Shown: positions 30,924 through 37,124 of the stretch, piece after piece
Position numbering within the stretch: position 1 is the stretch's first letter
Layout of the letters: each line of letters starts with the position of its first letter
Assembly (NCBI RefSeq): GCF_000244895.1
Contig: NZ_CM001441.1
Location: 2,190,226-2,254,225, forward strand
From: Desulfosporosinus youngiae DSM 17734
GTDB lineage: Bacteria; Bacillota; Desulfitobacteriia; Desulfitobacteriales; Desulfitobacteriaceae
DNA length: 64,000 nucleotides
Direction: 5' to 3'
Made by a program: the position numbers and the translations under genes
The notes under the pieces: model-generated
What the model was told of the DNA's origin: nothing
What the model saw: the letters and a program-made list of their open reading frames with translations, nothing else
Database searches by the model: none

Positions 30924-31835
30924 ATGCCTGAAGTTCCTGAAATGGAGATCTATAAGAACTATTTGAACCAGTGGGTTAAGGATAAACATATCAATAAGGT
31001 TAATGTTTTGCGGGCTAAAAGTGTTAACCTGGAAAGTTCGGAATTTTGCCGGGCAGTGATGGGTAAAAAAATCGACGGCATTTCACGGCGAGGTAAATAC
31101 CTCGTCTTTCATCTCAATGACGGTCACTTTCTCCTGACCCATATGATGCTGGATGGCAGACTCTTTCTCTTGACAACTGATTCAGAAACTATGTTGGAAC
31201 AAGAGAGTGACGTAAGCCAGCCCATGACATTACAGTCTGAGATTTTAGAAAGCAGTGCCGAGGATTTAAAACAGAAATTAAAAATGCTGCCGGGAAGGGC
31301 AAGCGTGGTTTTCGGTTTATCAGATGGTTCGGTGCTCTTTTTCTGCAGTCTTACACTTGGCTATTTGCACTACCTTGGACAGGAGCAGCTTGAGAGGAAA
31401 TTACGGGAATTAGGCAAAGATCCATTAGATTCAAAGGTTAGTGCCCAGGATTTTTCTCAATTACTTGAGAGAAAACGGGGAATGATCAAACCGTGGCTGA
31501 TGAATCCTAAAAATATCTCCGGAGTGGGAAATGCCTACTCTAATGAAGCATTATTTAGCGCGGGCGTTTTGCCGACGCGCTTGATTTCTCAACTAAGTTC
31601 TAATGAAAAAGTAACGCTCTTTAATTCCTTAGTGAGCATTATTAAAGATTCAATCCGCCTGGGCGGGGACATGGAAGAACCCTTTGCGGCCTGGGACGAT
31701 TTCACAGGGGGATATAATGCCTATTTCAAAGTATATGATCGGGCCGGGAAACCCTGTTTGGTTTGCCAAGAGACCATTCAAAAGACTGAAGTGGGGGGTA
31801 GAAACGCATTTTTTTGTCCGCACTGTCAACAGTGA
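30924..31835 (+). CDS. Fpg/Nei-family DNA glycosylase
   Basis: A 303-residue DNA base-excision glycosylase/AP lyase. The N-terminal catalytic Pro2-Glu3 is in MPEVPEMEIY, the conserved basic RRGKYLVFHL follows, then HFLLTHMMLDGRL, a helix-two-turn-helix (MIKPWLMNPKNISGVGNAYS) and a C-terminal zinc finger with CLVC and CPHC around GGRNAFF, which includes the conserved Arg. Longer than usual by about 25 residues because of an acidic insert at 90-125 (EQESDVSQPM). Whether it prefers oxidised purines (MutM) or pyrimidines (Nei) is not clear, so no symbol is given. Confidence 0.88.
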   Translation: MPEVPEMEIYKNYLNQWVKDKHINKVNVLRAKSVNLESSEFCRAVMGKKIDGISRRGKYLVFHLNDGHFLLTHMMLDGRLFLLTTDSETMLEQESDVSQPMTLQSEILESSAEDLKQKLKMLPGRASVVFGLSDGSVLFFCSLTLGYLHYLGQEQLERKLRELGKDPLDSKVSAQDFSQLLERKRGMIKPWLMNPKNISGVGNAYSNEALFSAGVLPTRLISQLSSNEKVTLFNSLVSIIKDSIRLGGDMEEPFAAWDDFTGGYNAYFKVYDRAGKPCLVCQETIQKTEVGGRNAFFCPHCQQ

Positions 31836-33568: not shown

Positions 33569-34693
33569 GTGGCTTCGTGTGTACGTTTCTTACAATGTGC
33601 CGGCTTTCTCTTTGATAGTCCTGTGTGGGATGGACCGGCGGAGTGGACATCAATCCGAAATCAAGATTTGTGGCAGACCTTCCAAACCGTCCTCTCGCTC
33701 TGCCGAACGGAAAGGATTGATGTTCTCTTTATAACCGGTGATCTATTTGAACAAGACTATGTACGCAGAGAAACTGTCGAGCGGGTAGCGCAGTCATTAG
33801 GCCAATTGGAAGGTATCCGGATTTTTATTACTCCGGGTAAGCGGGATCCGCTGGTTATGACGTCTGCTTACCGCCTGACGGCTTGGCCGGGCAATGTGCA
33901 CATATTCTCCAGTGGGGTTAAAAGTGTCGGCATACCTGACCTTAATGCCACTGTTTCCGGTGCGGCATGGACAGCCTATCATCAGGCAACTCCTTTTTTG
34001 GATGATTTTCGGGCGCCGGATGATGGTGCTCTTCAGCTGTTGCTTCTCCATGCTGAAGCAGATACTGAGAAGAATATTGCGTTCAGCGGCTTGGATTACT
34101 TAGCTTTGGGACATGGTGATACTTGGAGCGGCATTCAAAAGAGCGGGGAAACCTACTGGGCGGATTGCGGTGCGGTTGAAGCCAGAAGTTTTCATCATGG
34201 CGGTTCCCATGGTGTGATAATAGGGGAAGTTAACAAAGATTCTTCTCAATTTGAATTTCGGGAATTGGGACAACGGTCTTATATTGAAATCGATTTAGCG
34301 GTCCAGCCTGAGGATACTATGGAGGGGATTCTCGAAAAATTACTGGCCGAAACCAGCCCGGAAGGACGTCAGAAGGATCTGTTCAGAGTCAATCTGACAG
34401 GAACCTTATTAAACCTGCAAGAGAATGCTCAATTTTTACAAAAACGTTTAAAGACTGAGTTTCGTTTCCTGGAAGTTCTCACCCTGGATGAGAAAACTCA
34501 CTCACTATTAAGATCACCGGGAGTAACGGCAAAAAAAGATTTGGGCTATCCTACTCAAGCTCAGATATTTATGGATAAATTACAAGAGCGCTTAGTGAAT
34601 GCCGATGATTCTGAGAGTAAGAAATACTGGGAGTTTGTGCAAAAAATCGGACTGACAGCGCTGGAGCAGGGACGGGTATTCGATGAGGATTGA
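33569..34693 (+). CDS. SbcD/YhaO-like phosphoesterase with degenerate active site
   Basis: A 374-residue protein aligned by eye with SbcD/YhaO nucleases of the Mre11 type. The usual first block HxADxHLDSP appears as FLQCAGFLFDSPV, so the Asp and second His are replaced by Gly and Leu. GDLFE is kept, GNHD is replaced by GKRD, and the last GHxH is GHGD. Most metal ligands are therefore missing and nuclease activity is unlikely. The fold, length and C-terminal cap region are preserved. GTG start after GAGGTG. It overlaps the SbcC-like gene by 11 bases, as active pairs do. Confidence 0.72.
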   Translation: MASCVRFLQCAGFLFDSPVWDGPAEWTSIRNQDLWQTFQTVLSLCRTERIDVLFITGDLFEQDYVRRETVERVAQSLGQLEGIRIFITPGKRDPLVMTSAYRLTAWPGNVHIFSSGVKSVGIPDLNATVSGAAWTAYHQATPFLDDFRAPDDGALQLLLLHAEADTEKNIAFSGLDYLALGHGDTWSGIQKSGETYWADCGAVEARSFHHGGSHGVIIGEVNKDSSQFEFRELGQRSYIEIDLAVQPEDTMEGILEKLLAETSPEGRQKDLFRVNLTGTLLNLQENAQFLQKRLKTEFRFLEVLTLDEKTHSLLRSPGVTAKKDLGYPTQAQIFMDKLQERLVNADDSESKKYWEFVQKIGLTALEQGRVFDED

Positions 34694-37124
34694 ACGCATC
34701 AGAATCAATAATTTATGGGGTCTGGGGGATGTCGACTGGATATTTCCCTCAGGCCCTGTGTTGCTTTTATTCCAGAACAAAAGCGATCAGAGGTTGTTTG
34801 GGGATGTACTGCTGACCCTATTTTATGATCAGGAATTGCCATTACCGAAGGAACAGATTCCAAAGGCTGCAGCCGAAGTGTGGCTAACCTGCCGGGGGGA
34901 CGGTCCTTTTGACACAGGTTATCATATCCGTCATGAAATCAGGAAAAGGAATCACGAATTAGAGCAGTTTACTACCCTAATCGATGAAACAGGCCAGATT
35001 GTTGGTCTGCCGGAAAGGATGAAGATTGGAGATTATTTATATAAAGCTCAGCTTCAGGCTTTTCAGCAAGGAGGGCTTGTGGAATGGCCTGAAATTGATC
35101 ATTATGATTCTCTTGTCCGGCGCATCCATAATTTGTCCCAAGGAGGGGATGAGGGACTTTCTTTTAAAAAAGTCCAGGCTTCTATTGCCGGGGCACAAAT
35201 GAAACTCCAGGACCAAAAGGAGAAAATGGCTCTGGTGAAGGCCGAGTATGATACTCTAAGGCTTAATTGGGAGACAGCTCACCGGCATCAGGATGATGAA
35301 CGTTTACTTCAGATTGAACTAAAAAACTTAAAAGAACAGGAACTAATTCTATCCGAAAAGATAGCTTCAGCTGCCAGCCTGCAGAAACGTTTAGAGCTGC
35401 TTTCGCAAAATCCTGATTACCGGGAGCTGCGCCAGCTTCAAGACGAGATAACCTGTCTGGAAGAACGTTTACAAAGCTTAGAAGCTAGTTTAACGGAGAT
35501 TTCCTCAGATACGGTTTTGGATAATGCGGTCATTGAGGGGTTACGTGAAGAGTGCCTGGAGTGGGGGTGCTTTCAGAAAAACTTAAGCTCCTCGGCGGCT
35601 AAAATTCAAGCGTGCTCAAGCCAAATACTTAACACTCAAAACCTGCTCCAAGCATCGGGATACGAGGGATTATCAGATAACGAGGATGTGCTGCTGAAGA
35701 GAGCGGAAGAAGAAAGAGACAAGGCTCAGGAGAAGCTGAATAAGCTTCTCGTTGAAAAAGGAGAACTTGACAAACTCAGAAATTTATACAATCAAGAACA
35801 ATCCCGTTTTGAAAATCTGGCTGTGATGGCTGGCGTAACAGAGGCCGATATGATCAGGATTGCTCAGAAAGAAAAGCAATTGGAAATGTGGCGGGACTCT
35901 AAAGTCGGCGGCACTTTAGACCGGACGCTGCGTAAGCGGTTAGGGGTTAAAAGTATCGCAGAGAGATTATCCTCTTATCTGCTTAATTACTATGAGCAGT
36001 ACCAGGTGAGGAACTACCAGGAGTTTACGAGTCAGCTTAAGCAATATGCTGACCAAAAAGAGAGCCTGGAAAGAATGAAGGATAAGCTAGAAAAACTGCA
36101 AAAAGAAGTGAGTCAAGAGAGTCATTTAATCCGGATTGTAAATTCGCGTAATGAACGCTTAAAACATGCTTTTAGTGCAGTTCAGGCGGCAGATTTATCG
36201 GAATGGCTAAACGGATGGCAAGATTATCAACGAAAAAAACAGCAGCTGACCGCGGAGCTTAATGAGTTAAATGCTGAACTGAAACAACAATCGATTCTGG
36301 AAGAAAAGCTTGCCGCCTGCTCGGAAGTATTGCGTGATAAATTAAAGAGTTGGGGGGTACTGGCCGAAGTCAGAGAGGAAGCGTTGGAAGCCGTTCTTAA
36401 AATTGCCCATCAACTTCAAGAAAGAGATGAGGCGAAAAAGGAAATCTCAGAGTTTACAGAGAGGTTTTATAGTTTGCTCGGTGATCGGGATATGGTACAA
36501 CTCAGCAATTCTTTAGAACCATTAGCGGAATTGGAACGTGAAAAACGCCTTACGGACGAAGAAAGGCTGGCTGAAATGTCGGCATGGGATAAAGAACAAG
36601 CGGAAATCCGGCAAAACTTAGTTGTTTTGAAACAACGTCTTCAGAACAACCGGAAAGGTACCTCCTTGTCTGTTCTCGAAAAAGAAATAGAGGATATGAA
36701 ACGTCAGTGGTTATCCTATGAAGATTTACGCCATGCCTTAGAGGATGTTCAGGTTATCTTAGAATTATCCTGGCAGGAATGGCAAACAAAACACGCAAAG
36801 AGACTTAGCGAAGAAAAACAGTGGATTTACGAGCAGTGTTTCTTGGTGCCAGCCCTAACTACAGACAGAGAGACGATCTCGAGAAGGGCCTATTTTTCCT
36901 ATCGTATGGCCGTAGCGCAATTAGCACTTCATGTCAACACGGAGGTGCCCTTGCTTTTCTCAGTGGGAAAAATAAAGGAAGAGGATCAAAGGTTTTGGTT
37001 AGAAGTGGCCGGCTATCTTCAGAAATTGTCACTTTCCAGACAAGTCGTCTTCAGCATCACGGATTCTAAGCTAAGTGAGAAGCTTTATAAAAACGGCTGG
37101 TCTCTTTTAGCTGTAGAATCTTAA
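34683..37124 (+). CDS. SbcC/YhaN-like coiled-coil protein lacking ATPase motifs
   Basis: An 813-residue Rad50/SbcC/YhaN-type protein: an N-terminal globular piece starting MRIERIRINNLWGLGDVDW, long coiled coils from about residue 160 to 680, and a C-terminal globular piece. At the place of the Walker A loop (usually GxNExGKST) it has LLFQNKSDQRLFGD, with no GK[ST]. The C-terminal signature (usually LSxGTxxQ) reads ISRRAYFSYRMAVAQ. The Walker B strand ending in DD/DE is PLLFSVGKIKEED. ATP binding and hydrolysis are thus unlikely. It overlaps the degenerate SbcD-like gene, which suggests a pair retained for DNA- or partner-binding only. Confidence 0.72.
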   Translation: MRIERIRINNLWGLGDVDWIFPSGPVLLLFQNKSDQRLFGDVLLTLFYDQELPLPKEQIPKAAAEVWLTCRGDGPFDTGYHIRHEIRKRNHELEQFTTLIDETGQIVGLPERMKIGDYLYKAQLQAFQQGGLVEWPEIDHYDSLVRRIHNLSQGGDEGLSFKKVQASIAGAQMKLQDQKEKMALVKAEYDTLRLNWETAHRHQDDERLLQIELKNLKEQELILSEKIASAASLQKRLELLSQNPDYRELRQLQDEITCLEERLQSLEASLTEISSDTVLDNAVIEGLREECLEWGCFQKNLSSSAAKIQACSSQILNTQNLLQASGYEGLSDNEDVLLKRAEEERDKAQEKLNKLLVEKGELDKLRNLYNQEQSRFENLAVMAGVTEADMIRIAQKEKQLEMWRDSKVGGTLDRTLRKRLGVKSIAERLSSYLLNYYEQYQVRNYQEFTSQLKQYADQKESLERMKDKLEKLQKEVSQESHLIRIVNSRNERLKHAFSAVQAADLSEWLNGWQDYQRKKQQLTAELNELNAELKQQSILEEKLAACSEVLRDKLKSWGVLAEVREEALEAVLKIAHQLQERDEAKKEISEFTERFYSLLGDRDMVQLSNSLEPLAELEREKRLTDEERLAEMSAWDKEQAEIRQNLVVLKQRLQNNRKGTSLSVLEKEIEDMKRQWLSYEDLRHALEDVQVILELSWQEWQTKHAKRLSEEKQWIYEQCFLVPALTTDRETISRRAYFSYRMAVAQLALHVNTEVPLLFSVGKIKEEDQRFWLEVAGYLQKLSLSRQVVFSITDSKLSEKLYKNGWSLLAVES

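Follow-up and report, generated by a model that had tools for sequence, protein, structure and literature searches.

The gene pair and its lost catalytic sites

In the genome of Desulfosporosinus youngiae DSM 17734, a single contig of 5.66 Mb, a stretch of 64,000 nucleotides (the window) was analysed that carries two adjacent genes, one for a predicted Mre11-fold protein (D) and one for a predicted Rad50-fold coiled-coil protein (C); their parts are listed in Table 1. The original prediction had described them as an SbcD/SbcC-like pair with both active sites lost and both frames long, intact, and overlapping. Indeed, the two open frames and the overlap were confirmed, and the motif replacements reported for D (QCAGFL, GKRD, and GHGD) proved exact on re-reading. 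In the family-library scan, D remained below the cut-offs of Metallophos (14.9 vs 21.5 bits), NCBIfam TIGR00583 (mre11; 26.3 vs 434.6 bits), and NCBIfam TIGR00619 (sbcd; 16.5 vs 77.65 bits), and C had no relevant match in the libraries scanned. Promoter-like and terminator-like sites showed no excess over shuffles.

Table 1. Positions in the window of the two genes and of the segments discussed in the text
Feature	Position	Strand	Basis
D, nuclease-dead YhaO/SbcF-type (Mre11-fold) protein, 374 amino acids, GTG start	33569..34693	+	Fold model of orthologue L018; motif alignment
C, ATPase-dead YhaN/SbcE-type (Rad50-fold) coiled-coil protein, 813 amino acids	34683..37124	+	Rad50 head fold predicted; ATP motifs absent
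Overlap of the D end with the C start, 11 bases	34683..34693	+	Same length in 12/12 split pairs measured
Degenerate ATPase N-lobe of C, residues 1-123	34683..35051	+	Missing in five fused orthologues; identity 0.40
Coil base, C residues 124-212	35052..35318	+	Most conserved of eight C segments; identity 0.587
Coil joint, outgoing strand, QNPDYRELR, C residues 242-250	35406..35432	+	DYxEL in 32/34 orthologues vs 0/17 active
Coil joint, returning strand, LEPLAELERE, C residues 611-620	36513..36542	+	LEPLxxLE in 30/34 orthologues vs 0/17 active
Degenerate ATPase C-lobe, C residues 718-813	36834..37121	+	Signature and Walker B lost

The fold of D was modelled with AlphaFold2 on a fused orthologue (L018), whose D part is ~51-54% identical to that of the window (predicted local distance difference test score, pLDDT, 82.9; predicted template-modelling score, pTM, 0.47). 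Among the folds listed by Foldseek and VIA, which leave room for others, the best matches of this D part were Mre11 and SbcD (Foldseek expect value, E, 6e-12; VIA Z 25.4, root-mean-square deviation, rmsd, 2.8, 282 residues aligned), and the best VIA matches of the window C model (pLDDT 81.8; pTM 0.44) were Rad50 heads (Z 18.6, rmsd 3.4, 247 aligned).

The eight active-site positions of D, which we take to follow the numbering of Pyrococcus Mre11, were scored in an alignment of 101 D rows, comprising 37 from the clade that shares the loss (the dead clade) and 64 others, among them active YhaO-type and SbcD proteins. Window D retains three of the eight ligand or catalytic positions (D49, H173, and H206) and has lost D8, H10, N84, H85, and H208. 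Every dead-clade row keeps only zero to four positions: the motif I Asp (D8) is Gly in 37/37, the His that follows it persists in a single row, and N84 and H85 of GNHD, as well as the second His of GHxH (H208), are kept in none. Among the 64 other rows, 51 score 8/8 and two score 7, one is incomplete, and ten score 2-6. A mere shift of the active-site residues in D is ruled out by this alignment.

Window C has no Walker A motif throughout, and the signature and Walker B are absent at the aligned positions. The same holds across 34 orthologous C proteins (of which five have no N-lobe and another two neither lobe), since none has a Walker A anywhere and, in all 32 that have a C-lobe, the residues at the aligned signature and Walker B positions have changed; loose pattern matches in four of them (G002, G006, G012, and G052) fall off the aligned sites. 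For comparison, 17 C proteins called active, seven of which (L167-L172 and L026) are paired with a D that shows partial erosion of its own, carry Walker A and Walker B in all cases, and 15 of them match the signature pattern. Where window C has its degenerate C-lobe, the C-termini of active YhaN-type proteins show LSGGT...LFLDD or a close equivalent. The residues of C are therefore not merely shifted, as no Walker A occurs anywhere and no motif stands at the aligned sites, and an ATP-binding cassette (ABC) head is still predicted. Moreover, because the same loss recurs in 37/37 D and 34/34 C orthologues, it reflects neither chance nor a lone decayed copy.

A CxxC zinc hook is the criterion for an SbcCD-type C protein; it was found in 0/34 dead and 0/17 active YhaN-type sequences. 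A hydrophobic mid-protein stretch, by the Kyte-Doolittle scale only, was present in 16/17 active YhaN-type proteins vs 0/34 dead ones, and one dead C (G020) has an N-terminal hydrophobic stretch.

Family assignment, distribution, and inverted constraint

Judged by sequence comparison, the closest active relatives of the pair are YhaO/YhaN-type (SbcF/SbcE) proteins, rather than the SbcD/SbcC named in the original prediction. A search with window D recovered a YhaO-type D of Bacillus nakamurai (E 4e-9), the neighbour of which matches AAA_27, and did not find the SbcD of its own genome at E 1e-4. The label rests on the tree, on this match with its AAA_27 neighbour, and on the identity of the B. 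nakamurai pair, which we take to be yhaO and yhaN.

In a tree of 98 D rows, the 36 dead-clade rows formed one group (support 100/100) with 1.1 changes per column on its stem, placed among YhaO-type rows; the nearest active rows (L142-L144) joined it weakly (86/48), and the SbcD of the window genome was distant, with an end branch of 2.43. A class-wide D search (E 1e-8) matched 43 of 82 genomes, 41 with orthologous and two with active proteins (G038 and G040); 36 of the 41 were read for motifs, while G005, G010, G054, G064, and G070 were counted by similarity alone. In a set of 60 relatives, 40 genomes had a D match, which was orthologous in 38 and active in two. No genome of these 40 held an orthologous dead copy together with an active one, although an active copy that is too distant could escape this search. 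Of the 38 genomes that have orthologous D, 37 also had C, and the one without it is 79% complete. In a phylum sample, 32 of 398 genomes matched D at E 1e-15. A PF13514 search matched 53 of the 60 relatives, mostly through other ATPases, and did not separate YhaN, but it pointed to G038 and G040.

Conservation along C was expressed as mean pairwise identity per segment in 24 split dead C and 17 active C proteins. In dead C, the coil base was followed by residues 661-717 (0.570) and 213-290 (0.539), compared with 0.40 and 0.43 for the N- and C-lobe and 0.40-0.47 for the remaining coil. In active C, the lobes reached 0.35 and 0.41 and the coil 0.16-0.29, an order repeated in two closer active sets of three and six proteins. 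Thus the constraint is inverted: active YhaN-type proteins favour the ATPase lobes, whereas the dead clade favours the coil base and the coil joint. In Mre11-Rad50 complexes, the C-terminal helices of Mre11 dock on the coil base.

The two strands of the joint should lie approximately opposite each other, since the outgoing one is 119 and the returning one 106 residues from the coil limits at the head. A stricter first pattern matched 25/34 dead C, its P being variable, and DYxEL and LEPL were used instead; LEPL alone occurs in 1/17 active proteins, and the exceptions among dead C are near variants. The window C model has a low-confidence helix break at residues 241-244, and confidence is also low at 608-610 and 612-619. 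As Pfam gave weak matches only, the idea that the joint contains a known domain was rejected.

Selection, gene coupling, and alternative explanations

Taken together, these data favour, with a probability of about 0.72, a YhaO/YhaN-type complex whose two catalytic functions disappeared in the common ancestor of a Desulfosporosinus-centred clade, after which selection maintained it as a stable D-C scaffold. The computed support consists of the predicted folds, the clade-wide loss of metal and ATP sites, the monophyly of the clade, purifying selection, the close coupling of the two genes by overlap, co-occurrence, and fusion, and the move of constraint from the ATPase lobes to the coil base and joint. 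The original prediction had likewise suggested a structural or regulatory complex instead of a nuclease, and joint loss with preserved frames, fold, and coupling makes a non-catalytic role the best reading.

Ratios of non-synonymous to synonymous substitution (dN/dS, Nei-Gojobori) were 0.142-0.277 for D (20 pairs above 68% identity) and 0.153-0.264 for C (nine pairs). Pseudogenes, the outcome that would have shown as a high dN/dS, were rejected on these values and on open frames in nearly all orthologues read, across several genera. Furthermore, D and C form a single frame in six orthologues. One, from a Desulfosporosinus (L011/G019), has 1165 amino acids and part of the N-lobe, and five (G055, G057, G059, G056/L017, and L018, the last being G072) have 1061-1079 amino acids and no counterpart of C residues 1 to ~123-134. 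Since the split members G039 and G044, which keep a remnant N-lobe, are nested among fused ones in the tree, fusion accompanied by lobe loss probably occurred more than once. Forms of 563 and 571 amino acids in G048 and G052, which lie near contig ends and need confirmation, combine D residues 1 to ~236 with two coil pieces; they have neither ATPase lobe and still keep QNPDYRELR and LEPL.

Several observations weigh against a selected scaffold. In three close genomes, D and C had dN/dS of 0.146-0.253 vs 0.025-0.178 in six neighbouring genes; the ratios are low yet at or above the neighbours' range, which indicates purifying selection looser than on most neighbours and therefore only moderate constraint. 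In G037 (L114 6150-8415), C is split into adjacent frames of 413 and 340 amino acids, reflecting either decay or a sequencing error, beside an intact D that is 97% identical to that of G039. Three of 29 members of the genus had no match (genomes 67, 85, and 98% complete), so that the pair is probably dispensable in at least one. The mid-coil of dead C (0.40-0.42) is conserved no better than the lobes, the segment limits were set by the analyst, and the joint motifs were picked after the alignment had been inspected. The pTM values of the two models, one of the fused L018 and one of C alone, are 0.44-0.47. Finally, ligands remain in many dead-clade D proteins (D49 in 22/37, H173 in 31/37, and H206 in 28/37), and D could still bind a single metal weakly.

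Part of this would be expected if SbcEF were dispensable and both genes were drifting towards loss, the conserved parts being merely not yet erased: the two genes change more quickly than most of their neighbours, the ATPase lobes are gone in some lineages, one C is broken, and some members of the genus have no match. We consider such a decaying remnant unlikely, given the open frames over several genera, the low dN/dS, the conserved overlap, a joint motif that characterises the clade and is absent from active relatives, and a tree with a long stem followed by shorter branches.

An intact SbcD/SbcC pair, which the original prediction had proposed to look for, was sought in the window's genome and found at C1:199311 and 200612, its SbcD scoring 8/8 ligands. 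Mre11-type proteins dimerise, and if dead D joined the live SbcD, or dead C the live SbcC, it might act as a dominant-negative or targeting subunit. This seems improbable, because D and C are inherited together and fused to each other, and the genome's own SbcD stands far from D in the tree. Another intact pair resembling SbcD/SbcC, in this case of phage type, lies in the same genome (G000 C1:1092346-1095800; genes 1092346 and 1093512; L111 4347-7804; PHROG 100 and 77). A phage origin of the window pair was rejected, as PHROGs gave no match for D or C, and so was a known defence system, as the PADLOC matches were weak (0.0078 for D; 7e-4 to LmuB and 0.0018 to JetC for C), probably a coiled-coil effect.

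Charged replacements recur in the D pocket of the dead clade (Arg10 in 28/37, Glu84 in 24/37, Arg or Lys85 in 30/37, and Glu208 in 21/37), and might form salt bridges at the former metal sites. Together with the fixed Gly8 they could also constitute a new active site, which we regard as very unlikely: unlike in a catalytic site, the lost positions other than Gly8 vary, nine different residues occupying position 208 in the 37 proteins, and window D itself has Leu10, Lys84, and Asp208.

The envelope or sporulation link raised by the original prediction was not supported, as its GerMN and M23 neighbourhood is not conserved across loci. Both genes flank the pair in the window and at four other loci (L009, L010, L125, and L126), GerMN alone is present at L014 and M23 alone at L012, and at the remaining loci read the neighbours include, for example, a molybdopterin oxidoreductase, gamma-glutamyltranspeptidase, MutY-type glycosylase, sigma-54 activator, tetratricopeptide repeat (TPR) protein, or methyltransferase. 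A complex with GerMN and M23 is most improbable on account of these differing neighbours and the lost hydrophobic mid-protein stretch, even with this adjacency and with the reported interaction of B. subtilis SbcE with YabT/SpoIIE (PMC4205851). DNA glycosylases of Fpg or MutY type lie near the pair at several, not all, loci (window 30924-31835; L123 8913-10028; L124 4499-5653).

In the scaffold reading, D would no longer hold two metals, its pocket positions being often Arg, Glu, or Lys, and C would no longer open and close with ATP; with neither a metal pair nor an ATP cycle, the complex should stay in one state. It may act as a fixed clamp or tether that grips something through the D head and through the conserved joint ~105-120 residues up the coil, and selection would now act on the D fold, the coil base as the expected docking site of D, and the joint. 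Its cargo, at a guess from descent, is most likely DNA ends or a protein of DNA repair or recombination.

Other eroding lineages and known systems

Erosion is not confined to the window's clade. In family f12 and its kin (L152, L153, L155, L157, L158, and L026), D keeps 2-5 of the eight positions, and the ATP motifs of C are kept in the five read; at L146 and L147, D scores 6/8 with an intact C. In family f84, D scores 8/8 in 18 of 20 loci read. One of its members (G503) has a D of 5/8 and a C with Walker A and Walker B and no signature, and a relative (G296) has a D of 4/8 and a C without Walker A, signature, and one Walker B acid; each of the two genomes has a second pair whose D scores 8/8. 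By an informal count read on the tree, erosion appears to have begun at least three times, two lineages adding to the window's clade, and, where stages are visible, these sequences indicate that the nuclease is lost before the ATPase.

Some features of these loci were noted separately. An MreB-like gene, recognised by eye, lies near the f12 loci L152, L153, L155, and L158 (with C in L167-L170). The loci L166 and L210, from genomes G296 and G503, represent an f84 lineage with stepwise erosion beside an intact pair, and the C of G296 shows two hydrophobic mid-protein stretches by eye.

In this context, we tentatively suggest, at somewhat less than even odds, that an Mre11-Rad50-type complex can lose nuclease and ATPase and survive as an ATP-independent coiled-coil tether with a new joint, and that at least two further YhaO/YhaN-type lineages are eroding likewise, nuclease first, which would point to a coil-based, catalysis-free function of the family. 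The nuclease, ATP-cycling, and coil roles of Mre11-Rad50 complexes are hard to tell apart, and the dead pair would offer natural separation-of-function proteins, from which nuclease and ATPase, in some lineages even the lobes, have been removed and the rest is under selection. That the coil and the joint carry a function of their own is a testable claim, and erosion in other YhaO/YhaN-type lineages suggests that it may extend to the SbcEF family at large, which has been little studied. A literature search, which covered subscription papers and preprints little, found no publication on dead SbcEF and no experiment on the pair.

LexA sites were scanned in the 400 bases upstream with a LexA consensus and up to two mismatches. 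SOS control was rejected as a mark of the dead clade: 20 of 21 dead loci had no site (L112 has one), and the same was true of five of six active loci (B. nakamurai has one). Across the window (1-64000), CGAACN4GTTCG sites with up to two mismatches were rarer than in shuffles (7 vs a mean of 16).

Among known systems, the closest by tree is SbcEF (YhaN/YhaO) of B. subtilis and other Firmicutes, the label being assigned here by Metallophos and AAA_27 matches. It has been implicated in double-strand-break repair as a poorly characterised system (PMC6452273) and named among factors not essential for viability in replisome-nick experiments (PMC12748557). The pair resembles SbcEF in its D-then-C order, in combining an Mre11 fold with a Rad50-type coiled-coil ATPase fold, and in having no zinc hook. 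It differs in the loss of the nuclease ligands and ATPase motifs, in the absence of the hydrophobic mid-protein stretch, in the clade-specific coil joint, and in the D-C fusions. It also has no LexA box upstream, unlike yhaO and yhaN of B. pumilus, which one report lists under LexA/SOS (PMC3896406); this is a weak point, as most active loci have no good box either. The pair resembles SbcCD/Mre11-Rad50 in its predicted folds (Z 25 and 18.6) and in the adjacency of its D and C genes, but it has no ligands, ATP motifs, or zinc hook, and an intact SbcCD is encoded elsewhere in its genome. Archaeal B-family polymerases that have been inactivated, described together with eukaryotic polymerase small subunits that contain a dead calcineurin-like domain (PMC2527604), offer a parallel in which an inactivated DNA enzyme is kept over a clade and a structural role is proposed; there a single protein is inactivated, whereas here both partners are without their motifs.

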